Below, in pieces: positions 1,809 through 19,200 of a stretch of 64,000 nt of DNA; within the stretch, counting starts at the first letter, position 1; each line of letters opens with the position of its first letter. The stretch comes from Apostichopus japonicus (lineage: Eukaryota; Echinodermata; Holothuroidea; Aspidochirotida; Stichopodidae), in the NCBI RefSeq assembly GCF_037975245.1, contig NC_092568.1, positions 17,813,001 to 17,877,000 of the forward strand. The letters are read 5' to 3'. The notes under the pieces are model-generated. The model ran no database searches. It was given only the letters and a program-made list of their open reading frames with translations, and was not told where the DNA came from. The position numbers and the translations under genes were made by a program.

Positions 1809-3532
1809 CAGTGGCGTCACCAGACTTTTCAGTTTGGGGGGGGGGCACAGGGGGCACCAGCATTTGATGGGGGGCACTTAGGTGGATACGGATCGCCGTC
1901 CTGGGGGAGGGGTCTAAGGGGAGGGGGTGCCCCCTCCAGGCGAGGCAGAACGGGAAAATTATTGGGGGGGGGGCTAATGTGTAGAGACTATCTAAGCGGA
2001 GCGCCACCATCGGTTGGCGCGGAGCGTACAAGAAATTTTTGGGTTTTTCAAACCCCCAGATGGCCGGAAACGGCACTTCCCGAGTGTTTTATGCTACGAA
2101 TACCTAGCCCTAAAATATGGGTCTCAAGCCTGCAATTTCTCAGATTGCACGTAAAAGTCTGTAAAAACATTGTAATTTGTATATTCGATGGTGTTTTAAG
2201 AGAGTAGCTATTACTCGTAGTGTACTCGCAAAGACGTTTTTGAGTGTAGTAAGGGGTTGTTGGAGAACTGGCTGAAATGAAGCAAGTCATTGGCCTAAGA
2301 CGAAGTTGTGTTGCCCTTACCGGTACTCACACTCACTGCTTCCACTTTTCACGGGGCGTGAAGACGCGGTTGGGGTGACAATGTGGTCTATAGCCAGGGG
2401 ACGGGCCGAGGGTCCCCCCAGCATTTACTAAAATTATTACACCTATATAGTATACGTGTGCATCGGACAGATCGACAAGTATGCATTGAAAAATGGGCAG
2501 ATGCACGTTTCGGAGCCTTGGTAGATATAGGGGGGGGGGGGCTTATCATGCATTTGCCCCCTCAACTTTTTCATTGGGGGAAGCCCCCCGGTTCCGCCGC
2601 CACTGCCCCCTCCCCTTTGGAAAATTTTCGCTTACGGAGGATGGGCTAGATGCAAAATGCTGCCACATTTGATGCTAAATTCGATCTGAAGATATCTCCA
2701 GAAATTGCTATTTTTGAGGTAATGATTTTAACAAGGGGCAGAATTTTGCAGAGGATATGAACCACATGCTGTCGATATTATGCCTAACCCTATATCAATA
2801 GAACCTACATTTGTTGAAGTAATGTGTGCATGACCCCCGACTCCTTTCTTGTCTTTCTCGTTTTCGCCCATTATCTGTTAAGATGTAACAGGTTCCAGCA
2901 TCGTTATTGGCTCCTATCAGGGATCTCACCATGCAATCCAAAGTTTGATCACACATCGAGTATGGCTCAGTATGCAGGTGTGAACATTCGTCATTTGTTC
3001 CTACAAGCATCTAACCTCAAATGACCTCTGCACCCCCTACACAACAGGGTTAATATATGGGTCCACAAATATAGGCAAGTATGGTGCCTGCGGACCCTCA
3101 CATTCTCACATTTCGTCAGCTCCTAACCTGTCAACCTCAGACGAAGGCAACATATTGCAGTACCCTCCCTTCTCACAGTCATGTAGCTCGCGAACCGGAC
3201 GTGTATATCCGCTGGTATGGCGTGAGCACTGACACATTCAATGTAAATATCGACACCTGTTGTGATGGCGCAGGTCACGACTTCGATACCCGACGTTCAA
3301 GGATAAACTTTTTCATTTTTTCGCAGCTCATTTGAAGAAAATACGAATTACTGTGCTTCTTTGTCCTTATGAAAAACCAACTCAGATGATGGGAGTTGAA
3401 TATAACAAAATATATATATATTTTTTTACCAACCCAAATCTCAGATGGGGGGGGCACTCGGGGGGGCACTGGGTTTTCCAGGGGGGCACGTGCCCCCCTG
3501 GCCCCCCCCCCCCCCCCTTGGCGACGCCACTG
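1809..3532 (+). mobile_element. Non-autonomous hAT element (outer), 1724 bp, exact 8-bp TSD
   Basis: The left end reads CAGTGGCGTCACCAG and the right end, reverse-complemented, reads CAGTGGCGTCGCCAA. The 8 bp before the left end (1801-1808) and the 8 bp after the right end (3533-3540) are both TTCAACGT. CAGTGGCG-type termini with 8-bp duplications are typical of the hAT superfamily. There is no transposase frame, so it is non-autonomous. It is interrupted by a second element at 1937-2605. G-runs flank the interior near both ends. Confidence 0.85.
1937..2605 (+). mobile_element. Inner hAT-like element nested in 1809-3532
   Basis: It starts CAGGCGAGGCAGAACGGG and ends with the complement of CAGTGGCGGCGGAACCGGG. 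It lies inside the motif tgccccctcccctttgg, which is uninterrupted in the related element near 22240. The flanks repeat gccccctc if the last G of the element is shared with the target. It carries the hairpin core (about 1990-2030) and is a close copy of 22925-24007, but lacks the 388-bp element that interrupts that copy. Confidence 0.75.
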
Positions 3533-3844
3533 TTCAACGTTCAGTGAAACCATGGCCTCGATAAGGCGTAATCTCTTGTTAATTTTAGCTTTCTGTCTTC
3601 AATTTTATAATACAATAATTCAAATTAATTATTGCCTTTTTCATTCATCTTTTTCTCGCTAAGTAATCACAATTTATTTAAGATTAAATTTATGCTCATG
3701 TCTGCCTAGGTTCGATTCCCCGCCGAAGCACTATTTTATTTTATTTTATTTTGTTATCATTATTATTTATTTATTGGGTTGTTGTTAATATCTGCATGTC
3801 TATACATGGTGTTTTAAGTTTGTTTCGCTTTGTTTGTTTGTCTG

Positions 3845-4180
3845 TTTTTTGTAAGGGGGGGGGGGGTTGTTTCTATTTGGTATTTTGTTTCACGTAAACA
3901 CAGTAGGTCATTGCAATATTTTGCACAACTTGTCAATAGAAACCGATCGGAACTTAAGACCTGAGTAGTAAATTTGATTTCTGTCTCGCTCGTCGCCTTT
4001 CACTTGAAATTTTAATGAAAGTATACATAAGGACGAAAACTGTACCTGCAAAAGAAATGCTTCTTTTGTACAGTGTAAGGCCACCGCGACTTCTTTTCTG
4101 ACAAGCTTGATGATATTTGTTCTTCGGGAATGCTGTGTCATTACTTAGCCTTTATATTATAAACCGTTAAGTGTGGAAAC
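3845..4180. other. Intergenic, no gene recognised
   Basis: Contains a G-run (about 3856-3867) and ordinary AT-rich sequence. The short open frames here show no family resemblance. Confidence 0.5.
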
Positions 4181-4271
4181 AGCTATGCTCCTGTTAGAAC
4201 AACTTCACAATTCTTAAATGCTGATTTACTGAGGCAGGCGTTTGAAAGACAGTGTGATACAAACAGGTACG

Positions 4272-10135: not shown

Positions 10136-10206
10136 TTATAACTTTGATGCATGGTTTGGTAAATATCTTATCACTGATTTCGGTATTTCCTGTGCATTGG
10201 TACAAC
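10136..10206 (-). CDS. HAO1/HAO2: HAO exon 8 (stop codon, peroxisomal SKL)
   Basis: Acceptor CCCACAG precedes 10206. Encodes the last 22 residues, [12 protein letters not shown] then [10 protein letters not shown], and the stop TAA at 10138-10136. The phase fits exon 7 exactly, and the PTS1 ending confirms the exon although its sequence is otherwise poorly conserved. Confidence 0.88.
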
Positions 10207-13200
10207 CTGTGGGCAAAATGGAAATATTTAACTGAGTTATATACGCAGTTCCAATGACTCGATCGGTAATGTCATCAGTGAGTTGAGTTACATGCCACCA
10301 GAGCAAGTTGGATCTTGATAAAGTTTTCTGTGCTACTAGACAATAATATCCCGTAATAAAAAGTATAAAAATTTGAAGATTTCGAATTTGAAGTTTTTTA
10401 TAGTTATTAATATGGATATGTAAAAGTGTCTGGGTGAAGAAATGTTGAATATTGAATCAAATTCCCCTGACTACTGTACTTCCTAACTAACATTCCCTGA
10501 AACTTTGTTGAAGTTGATATCATCTGATCAACAAAACTAACCGGCCAGCAGCATGGCAGTACTGCAATCATCTGTTGAACAAATTAACCAAGTAGCATCA
10601 TCTGCTGAATAAAACTATTAAACCAAGGATAATAGTTCAATGGTGACACTGAATTTATCTATTGAACCAACCAATGGGAGATTACCATGGCAGTACTATA
10701 TTTATCTGCTATTATTTAAAAAAAACCTAACCGGCTAACACCATGGCAGTACTGCAATCATCTGTTGAACAAATTAACCACATAGCACCATACATGTATT
10801 GAATTCATCTGCTGAATAAAACTAACCAAGGATAATAGTTCAATGGTGACACTGAATTTATCTATTGAACCAACCAATGGGATAGTGCCATGGCAGTACT
10901 ATATTTATCTGCTAATATTTTAAAAAAACTAACCGGCTAACACCATGGCAGTACTGCGATCATCTGTTGAACAAATTAACCACATAACACCATAGATGTA
11001 TTGAATTCATCTGCTGAATAAACTAACCAAGGATAATAGCTCAATGGTGACACTGAATTAATCTATTGAACAGTTCCGAATACACATATCCATTCCATAC
11101 CTGCTAACGCCATGAAGGGCTTAATTAGTCTGCTAAACAAAACTAACCTGATAGAGCCATGGCAGTACTGAATTCATTTTTGAGCATTTCTAAGACCATC
11201 TTCACTCCTTCCTCACCCTAAAACGAGAAGAAAACAAACAATTCACAATACAAAAGTATAAAGAAGTTTTAACTTCTTCATGTACCAATTTCTAAAATTT
11301 TTGGCAAAGCTGTCGAAATTAATGTTCACTCCTTCACATATTTTCGGTTAATTGGGTATAACCAAAGGGAGGGGGGTACACCATACTCATTAGAGGCTTC
11401 TGAACAGAGCATAGTGCGAATAGAAATATTCACTGACATGGCAGATGCTTGTATGTTCTTTTTTTTTCATATACAAAAAGCAAGCTGTTTAATGGATTCA
11501 TGGTTATCAGATGTTTCAATTTAAAAGGTTTGCAAGTACAGGGAAACATTGGGGGAATATGTAATGCTATCAATGATTTCTTTTCAATTTAAACTTAATG
11601 CAACAGTGAAGCTCATATAAAAGAACAAAACCAAGTTTTGAATGCACCTTGTATGCCAATCCCCAAAGTACCGGCCTACCGATAAACACCGCCCTCGCTC
11701 CGAGAGCCAGGGCCTTCAGGACGTCAGTTCCCTTCCGTACCCCACCGTCTAGGTAAACTTCAACATCAGACCCTTTCACAGCCTCTACGACCTCTGGAAG
11801 AGCATCAATCTAAACAACAAACACAATGTTTTTAAATTATTAGGTGGGAAAGAGCACCTTGGTAAAAAACTGTTTATGACAATTTACAAAGATATGAATA
11901 TTCTATGAGTGAGTTGATAATTCATCAAAATTGAGCTGGCAATGTCTGAAATACAATATTTTTCACACTTTTAGGTAGGAGGAACATCATAAGTAAATGT
12001 TTTACTACAAATGTATGATTTTTTGGGAAGGTGAGTTGATATTTTCATCACAATTAAGTTGAAAAATATGGTTGTTTTCAATCATTATGTAGAAATCTTT
12101 CATTCTGAAAACTTCATCTGACCTCTCAAAGGAGTTTATCATTCATGTGACTCCATGAAGTACAGTATTAACACTAATGCAACAAGCACACAAACAATCA
12201 ACAAAGCTTCTGTTCACCTCTTTTAATATGTTGAAATCAAACATTGTTACAGCAGCAAGAATATTCTTAAAGCTGTCTCGCAAACGTTATGCTAATGGGG
12301 TACAGTGTTTATTCAATGTGGATGGTTGACAAGAGTTATGAGTGACAGTGTTCACAAGTTGCAGGTAACGATACACAGGCCAGTACGCAGAGGGATGTGA
12401 CAGGTACATTCACACCACACCTCCTCACCGCCCCTCCCTCTCGCACCCCTGCTGAATGATTCAACCAGTAGAACACATATCAATATGCAACAGACCACAG
12501 TGTAGATCTAGTAACGCACAATTAATAGTTTTCTAATATGCAAAGAGACTTACTGTACCCAGTACGCCATCTAGCTGCCTTCCTCCGTGATTGGAAACAA
12601 TTATGCCAGCGACACCGTTTTCAACGGCAAGCTCAGCATCACTGCCTGTAAGAGAGAGACAATCAAGACTGAGGATAGGATCTATCTTAGATGTAGTGAA
12701 TTTATGGGAGTGTTGATGTTTGAGACGTGTTGTGGTAGGGACATTGTGGGCTGTGATAATTATCTCTAACCAAGATAGTTCTGGTTAAAGGCAGACTTTG
12801 TGGTACGAGTACAACAGCATGAGCGTGAGTAAAAGGAGAATACACTTATCATATAATTTATGAGTACCAGTACACGGCTCCAAGCCTGAGCACAAATACT
12901 TCATTTTGCAAGTATCTATGCTAGATTCCAATATATACCACCTATAAGTACAAATCCATTCCATACTACAAAGTACAGGCAGGTATAACACTAGCATATA
13001 TGGTATGAGTAACGAATCCATACTACAAGTACAGGCAGCTATAACCCTAGCGTATGAGTAAGAATCCATACTACATGGTACAGGAAGCTATCATGCTAGC
13101 GTATGAGTATGGATTCATACTAATAGGTAGAGGCAGCTATAATGCTAGTGTAGAGAATAAGTATGGATCCATACTACAAGTACAGGCATCTATAACCCTA

Positions 13201-16200
13201 GCGTATGAGTACAGATCCATACTACATGGTACATGCAGGCAGCTATAATGCTAGCGTATGAGTATGGATCCATCATACTGTACAAGGTACAGGAAGCTAT
13301 AACGCTAGCATATGAGTATGGATCCATACTACAAGGTACAGGCAGCTATAATGCTAGCATATGAGTACTGATTTATACTAATAGGTACAGGCAGCTATAA
13401 CGCTAGTGTATGAGAATGAGTATTGGATCCATACTACAAGTACAGGCAGCTATAACCCTAGCGTATGAGTACAGATTCATACTAATAGGTACAGGCAGCT
13501 ATAACGCTAGTGTATGAGTATGGATCCATACTACAAGGTACAGGCAGCTATAACCCTAGCGTATGAGTACGGATCCATACTACAAGGTACAGGCAGCTAT
13601 AATGCTACCATATGAGTACGAATTCATGCTAATAGGTAGAGGCAGCTAAAACGCTAGTGTATGAGAATGAGTATGGATCCATACTACAATTACAGGCAGC
13701 TATAACGCTAGCATATGAGTACTGATTCATACTAATAGGTACAGGCAGCTATAACGCTAGTGTATGAGAATGAGTATGGATCCATACTACAATTACAGGC
13801 AGCTATAACGCTAGCATATGAGTACTGATTCATACTAATAGGTACAGGCAGCTATAACGCTAGTGTATGAGAATGAGTATGGATCCATACTACAAGTACA
13901 GGCAGCTATAATGCTAGTGTATGAGTATGAATCCATACTAATAGGTACAGGCAGCTATAACGCTAACTAGTGTATGAGAATGCTTTCCCACAAGTAGAAA
14001 AATTAAAAGAAAGACAATCATTCTGACTAGACATTTTTAATGCTTTAAATGATAATTTGTAGAAAATTCTAACCTTTTTTCATTAGCAACATGACTCCAT
14101 TTCCCCTGCTTTGCCCAAACAGAGGCAGTGCATCTTGATGTTTGTGGGAAATCTAAACAGACACAAACATACACCTCACTTATCCTTATTTACTTGAACT
14201 CCTACGTGGTATGGTTATTAGATATCACCAAACACCATTCCAACCAACACCACTTCAGTCAATACCATTCTAACACCATTTTTTGGGGGGTCACAGAAGG
14301 AAACTACCTACTCTATTGTTCTTTACCTGAGAGAATGCCCTTAAGGACAATTGGAAGCTTTGTGATAGTTTTCAGCCAACCTACATCTTTCCATGTTACT
14401 GCCGGAGAAATCTGAATAGGTCCATACAGGTCCCCCTTTGTGTTAGAAGAATTTTCATGCTCCAAATTTGGAAGTCTGAAACATGGAAAACAACAAGTAC
14501 ATTTTAGGCTATATGACTCCAATATAATCAACTTTTTTCTAGCATCATCCCTTCATATTAAGTTGTGCATACACTTCCATCTATATTAAAATTTTCATAA
14601 AGTGAACTATAGTGACTATTCCCTCCCGGTGGTTTCTGAACAATATCAGAAAAGCTGAATTTCTTAATTGCAGCTGTAGGCATTGATTTTGGCAACTCAC
14701 TGATTTGTTGCATATCATCAATGCAATCCACCCATGTCAGTGCAAATTTCAAGTTGAGATATATGGCATTAACCATTTGTACTTGATGACCTTTGTTGAC
14801 CTTTGGTCCCCACCAAAAATAATAGGCACCCTAAGGATCTCACTAATGGGGAAAGCCACATACTCTCTTCATAACAACATTCCCCTTGTTCAGATGTAAT
14901 GTGTATCAGGTTTTCACATTTTGACCTCGGTTGACCTCTGATGTCTATCAAAGACTTGTTGCGTATTACAAGGCTGAACTATGATGTAGGTACATACTTT
15001 CTTGTAGGGATTGCTCTGTTGACCCCTGCTAATGTTGGCCTGCTCATCAAGAACACCAAACGTGTACACATTACGGGCAAGCCATACGCCAAGTACAACA
15101 TTCCCATTCTTGAGATATCGTGGTCAAAAAATAGGGTTACAACACATTCACATTCTCACACGCACAAGCATGCACTGCAAGTAACCAAACTGAGTGGATA
15201 ACAATTTCTGGTTGTTCCCAATAGTCCAGACATTGGAAAAGATCAATGATTTGAGTTGTTTACAAAAATGCTCATACTTATGTTTGAGATCTTGGTATAT
15301 TTTTTATTCAACAGTGTATTTATTTGAATGTCACATGTGTGTGTGTGTGTGTGTATAGAGTGAAAGATATCCAATACATAAATGGAAGTGTCTGGTCACA
15401 CCTACTGATCATACATGCTTAAATCTATTTACATAAGAATATCCAATATGAGATTGATATTACTTTGAACTCAATTCAAACAAATACACAGTAGTACCTC
15501 ATAATACAGGACTGAGGTTGCTTGTAGTAACTCTCACAAGCTGGAATTATACTTATTCAGTATTTGGCTCTACGTGGTTAATTTGCCTTGAAAGGCTGTA
15601 CTGTTTATACGCTACTCAACAACATGTACAGTTTTGATTTGTCCAACCATATGTTTAGTCATCTCAGACCACTGGATAAACCTCAAAGGGTGACTCGCGC
15701 AAAAAGAAACGTCTAATGCCGGTAATTTGACCTAGTTTCGTATGAGGTGTAACAGTGTTAAAAACTACCATCGATCCCAGAAAATACACACACAGCTTGC
15801 TACCCTTGGTAATTAGACACTAGTGTACAGTCAGTACATACAGATGCGGTCAATACCCACAGCACAGTATACAAACGATACAGCGATGGACATCTCAGGT
15901 CCAGCTAAAGATAACAATTAAGGTATCAGGTTTCATTACTGTCTGCATTTTGTAGCGACACAAACAAAACGTCACTTGCAAGCAACAGAAAGTTAACTTT
16001 TTCAGATGGCCGCACGCGGTTTGGGGCGAGTCTTCAATGCCTTTAAATCACTTTTTGAGTTTGTATATGTATGTATGCAGTTCACATGGCAAATCTGGTT
16101 GTTATCATTTCAAATAAACAAAAACAAAGTCGAATTTTTTCAAAATTTCCCAGTTTGCCTTTACATACGGTTAATACTGCTATGAATTTACAAAAGTGTC

Positions 16201-19200
16201 TCAGCGTAGAAGATGTCGAGAACTGAATGAAATCTTCAATGACTTACTACGCGTTTTTAATTTGGTTTTTACAGAAAAGAGAACGCAGACATGATAGGTT
16301 TGGTGATTCCTTGAAACATTTTACATTAATTAATACATTTTTATGAACTAGTTTATGACAGTTAGACCATTGTAGCATACAAGTGACCAGCAATGTTTTG
16401 CACTAATTTGGACCTAGCCATATCATAACATGAGGTTCATCTAAACCTTAAAGGCATTGAAGACTCGCGCACAAAGAAACGTCTCATGGCGGTAATCTGA
16501 CCTAGTTTCGAATGAGGTGTAACAGAAGTGACAGTTAGACACCACCATCAATCCCAGAAAATACACACACAGCTTGCTACCGTCAGTAATTAGACACTAG
16601 TGCACAGTCAATACATGCAGATAGGGTCAATACCCACAACAGTGTACATAGCAGTCCATCTACAAAAAAGATAACAAGGTATCACCTTTCATTACTGTCT
16701 GCATTTTGTAGCGACACGAACAAAAATTTCACTTGCAAGCAACGGAAAGTTAACTTTTTCAGACGGCGGCACACGGTTTGGAGCGAGTCTTCAATGCCTT
16801 TATGTCAGATCTCCCAGTACAACGATTTATTACATGAATCATAATATTTTGAAACCATGCATAAAACGTTAATCCCAATTTTGATGTCATACAGTATGTA
16901 GTTCAGTAATGTCACAATTATAACTATTGAAATGACAAATCATGATCAAAGGAAACCACCCAGACCTGATACTGCTGTCAACTTTGAATCCATTTCTTAA
17001 ATCTGCCAATCTTATCCCGACGACGGGAGTATCGACCGTCACGACCAACGCTTTGTATCCGGCTTTCTCGGCACGCCTGACAATGGTCTCCGTCAGCCTT
17101 CTATCTTTAACGATGTAGAGTTGAAACCAGTGCAAGCAGTTGGGAGAAGCAGAAATCACATCCTCCATGCTTGTGGTGGACCAAGAACTCAATATCATGC
17201 CCGACTGCAAAGAGGCAGCAGCTAAACATTTCGAGAGAAACAAGAACGAACGGGGAATTTAGTGCTCGAATTTTGTAATATAGTGGTCTCGTAGGCTCTG
17301 AAAGTTCCCTTACAAAATACTATCATTCATTTGTACCAAAAAAATGCTGTACATCTTTGCACTTGTATACTAGCAATTTGCCCATTTTGCATAGCATTTT
17401 GCGATGCGATTCCCAATGAATTATTCCCTGACAGTAATTTACTATGTAAGTAGAACTACATTTGGAAAAGAACAATAAATTTTTTGGCTAGAATGGGACT
17501 TAGATCCGTGACCTCAGGGGTTTGTAAAAATGAGGTCACCGATTCAAATCCCACTCTAGCCAAGAAAAAATTCCTTGCTCTCTTTTTCATATTTTTACTC
17601 TGTTTATAGCTCCATGGTGTAAGTGAGAAGTTTCTGATGAACAAATGTACTTTTTCAGAGTTAAATCAATATAATACTGGGAAAGATGCAGGTATAGCAA
17701 CCAAGGCAAAACGAAACTAATCATGTTCTGTTAACCAGCAGGCTGGCGCTCTGCTGATCTAATGTGCAGTTTTTCTCAGTGCCAAATAAACCAGCAACTC
17801 ACTGTGCACTCCTTAACAACGTTTAGTGTCTAGTTCATAGACTACTGCATGGATTAACAAACTATTTGAGGCAGCTCAGTATAATAAGTTAATTAAACGA
17901 CTGGCATATATTCTATACTCATTCAGGTCACTTGTATATATTTTCCATAACATACAACTTCCCCGAGGTCACCTATGTCATTTGAGATATACCCAAACCA
18001 CCAAGTAGGAGAGAAGTATATTCTCTCTCACGCATATTGAATGTGTTTTATTATTATGTCTCACCCTGTACTGAGCCGGGATTCTGACACTCCGACAGAA
18101 AGGGTACTTAGATAGGAGGCCTTTGAGCCATATCAGCCCACAAAAGACTTCAATCCAGCTTTCAATAAAATATCAGACACACAACCTTGCACTCGTCAGG
18201 TATGCACACCCCTTATGACCTTAGGCTCAAGGCTGACCCTACCTTGCCCCTCTGCAACAACCAATCTTTCTTGGGTGGCTCTCATATGAAATTAAAACGA
18301 GAAACAAAGTCCTATCAGGTATCACTCACCTTTAGCAGTAGCTATTTCACCCTCTGGATGAGCAAGTGAATGCATCGCTGTTGGAGCGATTGCCACAGGG
18401 AATGATAATTTCCTACCAAGAATTGTGGTAGACAAATGTCTCTCCGACACATCTTTCAATAACTGTGGACACAGTCTTATCCTAAAAGTAAAGATGGTAT
18501 AAATTGGGCAATTGAACCAGCATCTAGGTCGTATCATGATATTAGGTGCACCATTTAGTCACAATCCGTTATCAGAACTGGACGATTTTTGATAGTCTGC
18601 ATTAAAACAGCATTGCCTCCTGCACTACAGTCCATCCATCCATATATAACTGTGGTCAAGTTGGTGCACAGCCTGATTATGGCCTACCTGGACTTTAAAG
18701 CCATGACAAACCTCCCAGTGGTAACTTGCCAAACAAGAACCAGAAAACTAGAAAGGAAAGGGGGCTTAGTGATCCTTGCCAGATTTTGTATGAGCTGTCA
18801 TTTAAGTGTGCATATAAGGTTCGAGTATCCACATAAGGACCAACAAAGTCCTTATGTGGCGATACGAGAGTATCCACATAAGGACCACAAACTGCGTTAG
18901 TCCTTACGTGGCGATATGAGAGTATCCACATAATGACCAAAGAACTGCGTTAGTCCTTATGTGGCGATATGAGAGTATCCACATAATGACCAAAGAACTG
19001 CGTTAGTCCTTATGTGGCGATATGAGAGTATCCACATAATGACCAACGAACCGCGTTATTCCTTATGTGGCGATATCCACATAATAACCAACGAACTGTG
19101 TTAGTCCTTATGTGGTGATATGAGAGTATCCACATAAGGACCAAGTGGTTCGTTGGTCATTATGTGGATACAGCTCTCATATCACCACATAAGGGCTTAT

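Follow-up and report, generated by a model that had tools for sequence, protein, structure and literature searches.

The HAO gene and its seventh intron

The window, a 64,000-nt stretch of Apostichopus japonicus contig C8 (NC_092568.1; 17813001 to 17877000), contains on its minus strand a gene that looks like a hydroxyacid oxidase gene (HAO), i.e., an echinoderm enzyme gene. The protein joined from the predicted exons, some with approximate edges, aligned with the PDB chain 2w0u_A, hydroxyacid oxidase 1 (419.7 bits, E = 9.2e-125), which we take to be the human enzyme. HAO exon 7 (11148 to 11217, minus strand; 70 nt) encodes 24 protein letters, the last codon being split, and aligns to PDB hydroxyacid oxidase 1. 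Its authentic donor, CAG|GTTAGT, begins at 11147 on the minus strand and opens intron 7 (10207 to 11147, minus strand; 941 nt). Exon 8 (10136 to 10206, minus strand) encodes (G) and 22 further letters that finish with SKL before the stop, the SKL end presumably being a PTS1 peroxisomal signal, and a single open frame runs across the joined exons 5 to 8. The exon 7 end reads AMALSG, which is also found in PDB hydroxyacid oxidase 1, and judged by this shared wording the exon end is old.

HAO belongs to a family that is expanded across many contigs, with several members on contig C21; a query consisting of HAO exons 6 and 7 gave 21 matches in the genome, two each from the HAO gene and its duplicate (see below). 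Besides the array in intron 7, a satellite with an ~49/103-bp period and an unlike sequence was identified in intron 4 (12960 to 13965), and another array, with a 53-bp unit, is located between two upstream HAO exons (18847 to 19144), so that three ~50-bp arrays reside in one gene.

The exon 7 junction is a monomer of the intron 7 array

The junction monomer (11130 to 11177, minus strand) consists of the last 30 nt of exon 7 and the first 18 nt of intron 7, including the authentic donor. A hidden Markov model (HMM) was built from 10 intron monomers, the exon copy being left out of training, and the exon junction (11177 to 11130) matched all 47 of its positions with E = 5.9e-10 in a search of the window. 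This independent, full-length match agrees with the initial annotation, in which the end of exon 7 plus its donor had been described as one monomer of an ~50-bp array. The search produced 12 array matches: the exon junction, ranked fifth, and 11 intron units, 10 of which had served for training. The best match in the window beyond the array had an E value of 7.6. Tandem units therefore span the exon-intron boundary, the array beginning on its exon side with the junction as a complete monomer. When the exon-junction 50-mer was compared with the remainder of intron 7 by Smith-Waterman alignment, 11 matches with scores of 24 to 56 were obtained; nine scored above 35, the highest maximum among 500 single-base shuffles, and one more equaled it. 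The likeness between junction and array corresponded to a z value of 11.3 against shuffles.

The intronic array (10524 to 11129, minus strand) is composed of 12 units, 11 of them found by the HMM and one (11129 to 11063) doubtful, which is in line with the dozen or so decayed junction copies proposed earlier. The array was also said to fill intron 7, which is an overstatement, as it occupies 624 of the 941 intron bases. It was absent from the listing of Tandem Repeats Finder at a score of 50. Some copies still read exactly GGTTAGTTTT, as had been noted: the authentic junction and three intron copies do so, giving four matches in the window (shuffle mean, 0.13).

Could an ordinary intron minisatellite resemble the exon end by chance? 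The Smith-Waterman match at 11126 to 11099 scored 24, which is at the chance level of the shuffles. The doubtful unit, located directly past the junction, gave no HMM match, which leaves 67 nt between the junction copy and the first firm intron unit, beginning at 11062. However, the junction matches a profile made from intron units only, over its full length, and it has the z value of 11.3 against shuffles; on the HMM test and the shuffles we reject chance similarity, to which we attach a negligible probability.

Higher-order structure and decay of the units

The array has a period of four monomers, or ~202 bp. The higher-order units H1 (10862 to 11062, minus strand), with monomer types A-B-C-D, and H2 (10659 to 10861, minus strand) share 95.0% identity across 201 aligned positions, and a partial unit, H3 (10524 to 10658, minus strand), with an A, a truncated B, and a C monomer, is 90.8% identical to H1 and 93.1% identical to H2. 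The A units carry a 5-nt insertion. The donor GT is kept in the A, B, and C units of the C8 array, and the D units have AT.

When ten intron units were read in the exon frame, STAM was kept in five: STAMALS (10908), STAMVLAG-stop (10963 and 10761), STAMVIS (10705), and STAMLLAG-stop (10571). Two further units read NTSMVLCG-stop (11010) and NTCMVLCG-stop (10808), and the exon reading was not kept in the three A units (11062, 10861, and 10658). The intron units retain 20 to 24 of the 30 exonic letters. Among the 11 intron units, 234 of 329 monomer letters in the exonic half were like the exon copy versus 159 of 192 in the intronic half. This count drops the truncated unit at 10601, and the latitude in aligning the short end may contribute to the difference. 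A simple exon-copy model does not predict that the exonic half is the less exon-like of the two.

A decayed duplicate on contig C15

An ~3-kb region of contig C15 (6400155 to 6403117) is 85.2% identical to positions 13339 to 10312 of the window. The duplicate begins inside the intron 4 satellite and ends before exon 8, and DNA that is 89% like window positions 3531 to 4271 adjoins its breakpoint (locus L022, C15:6394001-6404000). In the duplicate, the GT of the exon 7 donor has become AT. Apart from a D monomer and a single spurious match, a tblastn search over 25 kb at C15 gave exons 5 to 7 only, and exon 8 was not found within 6.1 kb downstream of the copy (score of 29 versus a null mean of 30.9). 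On these observations, we reject a functional C15 copy. The junction of the duplicate still had a z value of 10.0. The higher-order units of the C8 and C15 loci are 90.8% to 95.4% identical, so the array very likely predates the duplication. The two arrays, which are paralogous and come from one assembly, differ in their units.

Distribution of the repeat in the genome

The genome searched comprised 671 Mb. Counts from the DNA search, which passes over very common words, are lower bounds, so that the pattern searches carry the most weight. Two DNA searches, one with the array and one with the far end of the C15 array, gave matches in C8 and C15 only. Patterns for the C (26 nt), A (34 nt), and B (31 nt) units, allowing up to three mismatches, were found in five, five, and three places, respectively, all in C8 or C15, and the reversed-control patterns of the same units had zero matches in the genome. 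With up to two mismatches, a 21-nt core of the exon and D copies had six matches; the two HAO loci account for four of them, and two lie outside these loci. Both of the latter gave weak HMM matches (best E values, 0.032 and 0.06), and we read them as chance matches rather than true repeat copies, a hand estimate giving ~2 as expected. At C16:15687023 there is a single core. At C3:7232436 (L055:292-468), three cores lie within a separate three-copy, 59-bp array that has an ~20-nt core in common with the HAO monomer, the rest being unlike by eye. Five cox1 matches were also seen on contig C29 (14745 to 31219), apart from C35; these may be nuclear mitochondrial copies or an assembly matter.

The initial annotation named a satellite spread widely through the genome as the outcome that would speak for invasion of exon 7. 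Such a distribution was looked for and not found: at the sensitivity used, the repeat is restricted to C8 and the C15 duplicate, plus the two weak core places, and the many unlinked copies of a dispersed satellite or a transposon-borne repeat were not found in the genome.

In five paralogs that could be placed, exon 7 has a homologous end whose residues differ (e.g., ALALSG or TMALCG), and the donor position is the same. None of the five exon 7 donors is accompanied by an array (z values of -1.8 to 2.0 versus that of HAO). The closest paralog reads FNLALALSG where HAO reads FSTAMALSG, and at its locus (L024) we identified neither a monomer HMM match nor monomer-like nucleotides.

These comparisons bear on the direction of copying. 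A satellite could have been present first, in the intron or arriving from elsewhere, and could have replaced the end of exon 7 through gene conversion or invasion. Consistent with this, the ST codons are common to the array and the HAO exon, whereas PDB hydroxyacid oxidase 1 has RL and the closest paralog has NL at this place; since ST differs from both, some exchange from array to exon is possible. However, the searches outside HAO DNA gave only the two weak core matches, and family members that have no array share the homologous exon end and the position of the donor, which makes a satellite-first origin improbable. The exon junction is most likely the source of the array, as originally proposed: the confinement of the repeat to HAO DNA, the age of the exon end, and the array-free paralogs make exon to array the better direction, which we infer from paralogs and PDB proteins.

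Boundary arrays of the kind called mirages in amphioxus were also searched for at other exon edges. None was above z = 2.2 at eight other HAO boundaries (exons 4 to 8), the five paralog donors, and 56 P450 edges. The P450 sample covered 28 loci (28 of 96 matches), with guessed splice positions, stops in some loci, and 900 nt on the intron side, and the best E value of the monomer HMM in these loci (113,457 bases) was 0.2. Mirage formation as a general habit of the genome was thus not seen at the sampled HAO, paralog, and P450 boundaries. Given z values of at most 2.2 elsewhere, compared with those at HAO exon 7 and in its C15 copy, the array appears to be a single event among the sampled boundaries rather than a genome habit.

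Predicted decoy donors

The junction copies are plausible, by sequence, as the decoy donors that had been predicted. Donor sites were scored with a generic matrix. The strongest candidate decoy, CAG|GTATGG (11095 to 11103, minus strand; GT at 11100), scored 9.11 versus 7.91 for the authentic donor and is located inside the doubtful unit; all other array GT sites scored 6.29 or less. A TAG follows the authentic donor directly in frame, and read-through to any decoy would therefore yield a protein that stops at AMALSG and lacks exon 8 with its SKL. The distance from this stop to the new junction would be 42 nt for the decoy at 11100 and 115 to 601 nt for the five other decoys at the junction position (11027, 10933, 10826, 10731, and 10541). 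Escape from mRNA decay usually follows a 50- to 55-nt rule, under which only the decoy at 11100 would escape.

The array might accordingly be maintained because its decoys regulate HAO, above all through 11100, which would give a protein without SKL, or through mRNA decay. The stop distances are compatible with such a role, and the six array GT sites scoring at least 4 correspond to 9.7 per kb versus 5.9 per kb on the minus strand of the window. However, the matrix is a generic one, and 45 of the 3,803 GT sites on the same strand score at least 8; two of the six array sites (10793 and 10685) are off the junction position, the best decoy lies in the doubtful unit, and the D monomers have AT in place of the GT. 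In addition, according to the authors of the amphioxus work, Adh3 data and their globin reverse transcription-PCR suggest that mirages leave regular splicing undisturbed (PMC3087553). We consider a regulatory role of the decoys unlikely. Its most specific form is less likely still: the site at 11100 would be a switch yielding a stable HAO mRNA that ends at AMALSG without SKL, placing part of the enzyme outside peroxisomes, while use of the farther decoys would result in mRNA decay; enzyme site and dose would be tuned by the array, with unit number as a heritable dial.

Proposed origin of the array

The reading that we prefer, with a probability of roughly 0.78, is that the HAO exon 7 junction was tandemly duplicated, that the units diverged, that a four-unit block was copied, and that the C15 duplicate arose last, the whole being a neutral by-product. 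A short tandem duplication would have taken in the final 30 nt of HAO exon 7 together with ~18 nt of intron 7, donor included, and this stretch would have been repeated downstream in the intron. These first units would then have diverged before the ~202-bp block of four was copied again to form the higher-order array. Later, a 3-kb piece containing exons 5 to 7 and the array would have been duplicated to another contig, where it decayed. Slippage or unequal exchange would account for the array, and its decoys would be silent, the spliceosome mostly staying with the authentic first donor. As counterpoints to this scheme, the A units are without an exon reading, the unit that follows the junction has no HMM match, and exchange with the array could have altered part of the exon as it now reads.

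Comparison with known boundary repeats

The HAO array is a genuine repeat that was made locally and is of a type known before from amphioxus, where two reports place mirages in Adh3, the globin genes BflGb6 and BflGb9, TnC, and PGBD5 (PMC3087553; PMC3902484). As in the mirages outlined there, the tandem units run across an exon-intron boundary and many carry a splice signal (PMC3087553; PMC3902484): GT is present in the A, B, and C units, and the exact motif is retained in the three intron copies. The ~50-bp HAO unit also falls within the 10- to 72-bp range given there for the Adh3 mirage (PMC3087553; PMC3902484). Unlike the BflGb6 units, for which 81% to 100% identity is given, those of HAO keep only two-thirds to four-fifths of their exonic letters. 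The HAO array further differs in its four-unit higher-order period, and it is known from one assembly. Mirages have been reported in cephalochordates and the host here is an echinoderm; since taxon range is no mechanism, we call the HAO array mirage-like rather than an amphioxus mirage. The mitochondrial code also points to an echinoderm: cox1 on contig C35 fits conserved motifs if AAA is read as Asn (code 9), and a nad4L-like frame follows it, both being echinoderm traits. The GFP family gave no match in this genome, but it was equally silent in all 14 control genomes and so carries no weight for the taxon. No echinoderm case of such repeats was among the matches listed from the titles and abstract beginnings of open-licence literature.

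A minisatellite with multiple splice donors was reportedly described in IFI6 by Turri et al. in 1995; its unit is 12 bp. In human IFI6 (6-16), two downstream repeat units are reported as used donors (PMC4526556). The HAO array is similar in that a tandem repeat at an exon end offers extra donors (PMC4526556), whereas its unit is ~50 bp and diverged and its decoys are predicted from sequence. Tandem repeats that lie at exon-intron boundaries within human segmental duplications are likewise minisatellite expansions, but they are recent and variable, reside in primate duplicates, and are coding in about half of the cases, whereas the HAO array is diverged and intronic. The dual-specific AG|GT sites of the UBC tandem repeats provide another parallel, as both the authentic HAO donor and the decoy at 11100 read AG|GT (PMC10809524). 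However, the other GT-bearing junction positions of the C8 array read CG|GT or TG|GT and lack the AG.

Junction-seeded minisatellites have been proposed as a source from which new introns and alternative donors arise, with cases from amphioxus and human. The diverged echinoderm array, with its higher-order structure and a duplicate whose donor is now AT, illustrates the appearance of an aged array of this type, and it allows one to ask if a dozen or so near-copies of a real donor are passed over by the spliceosome.
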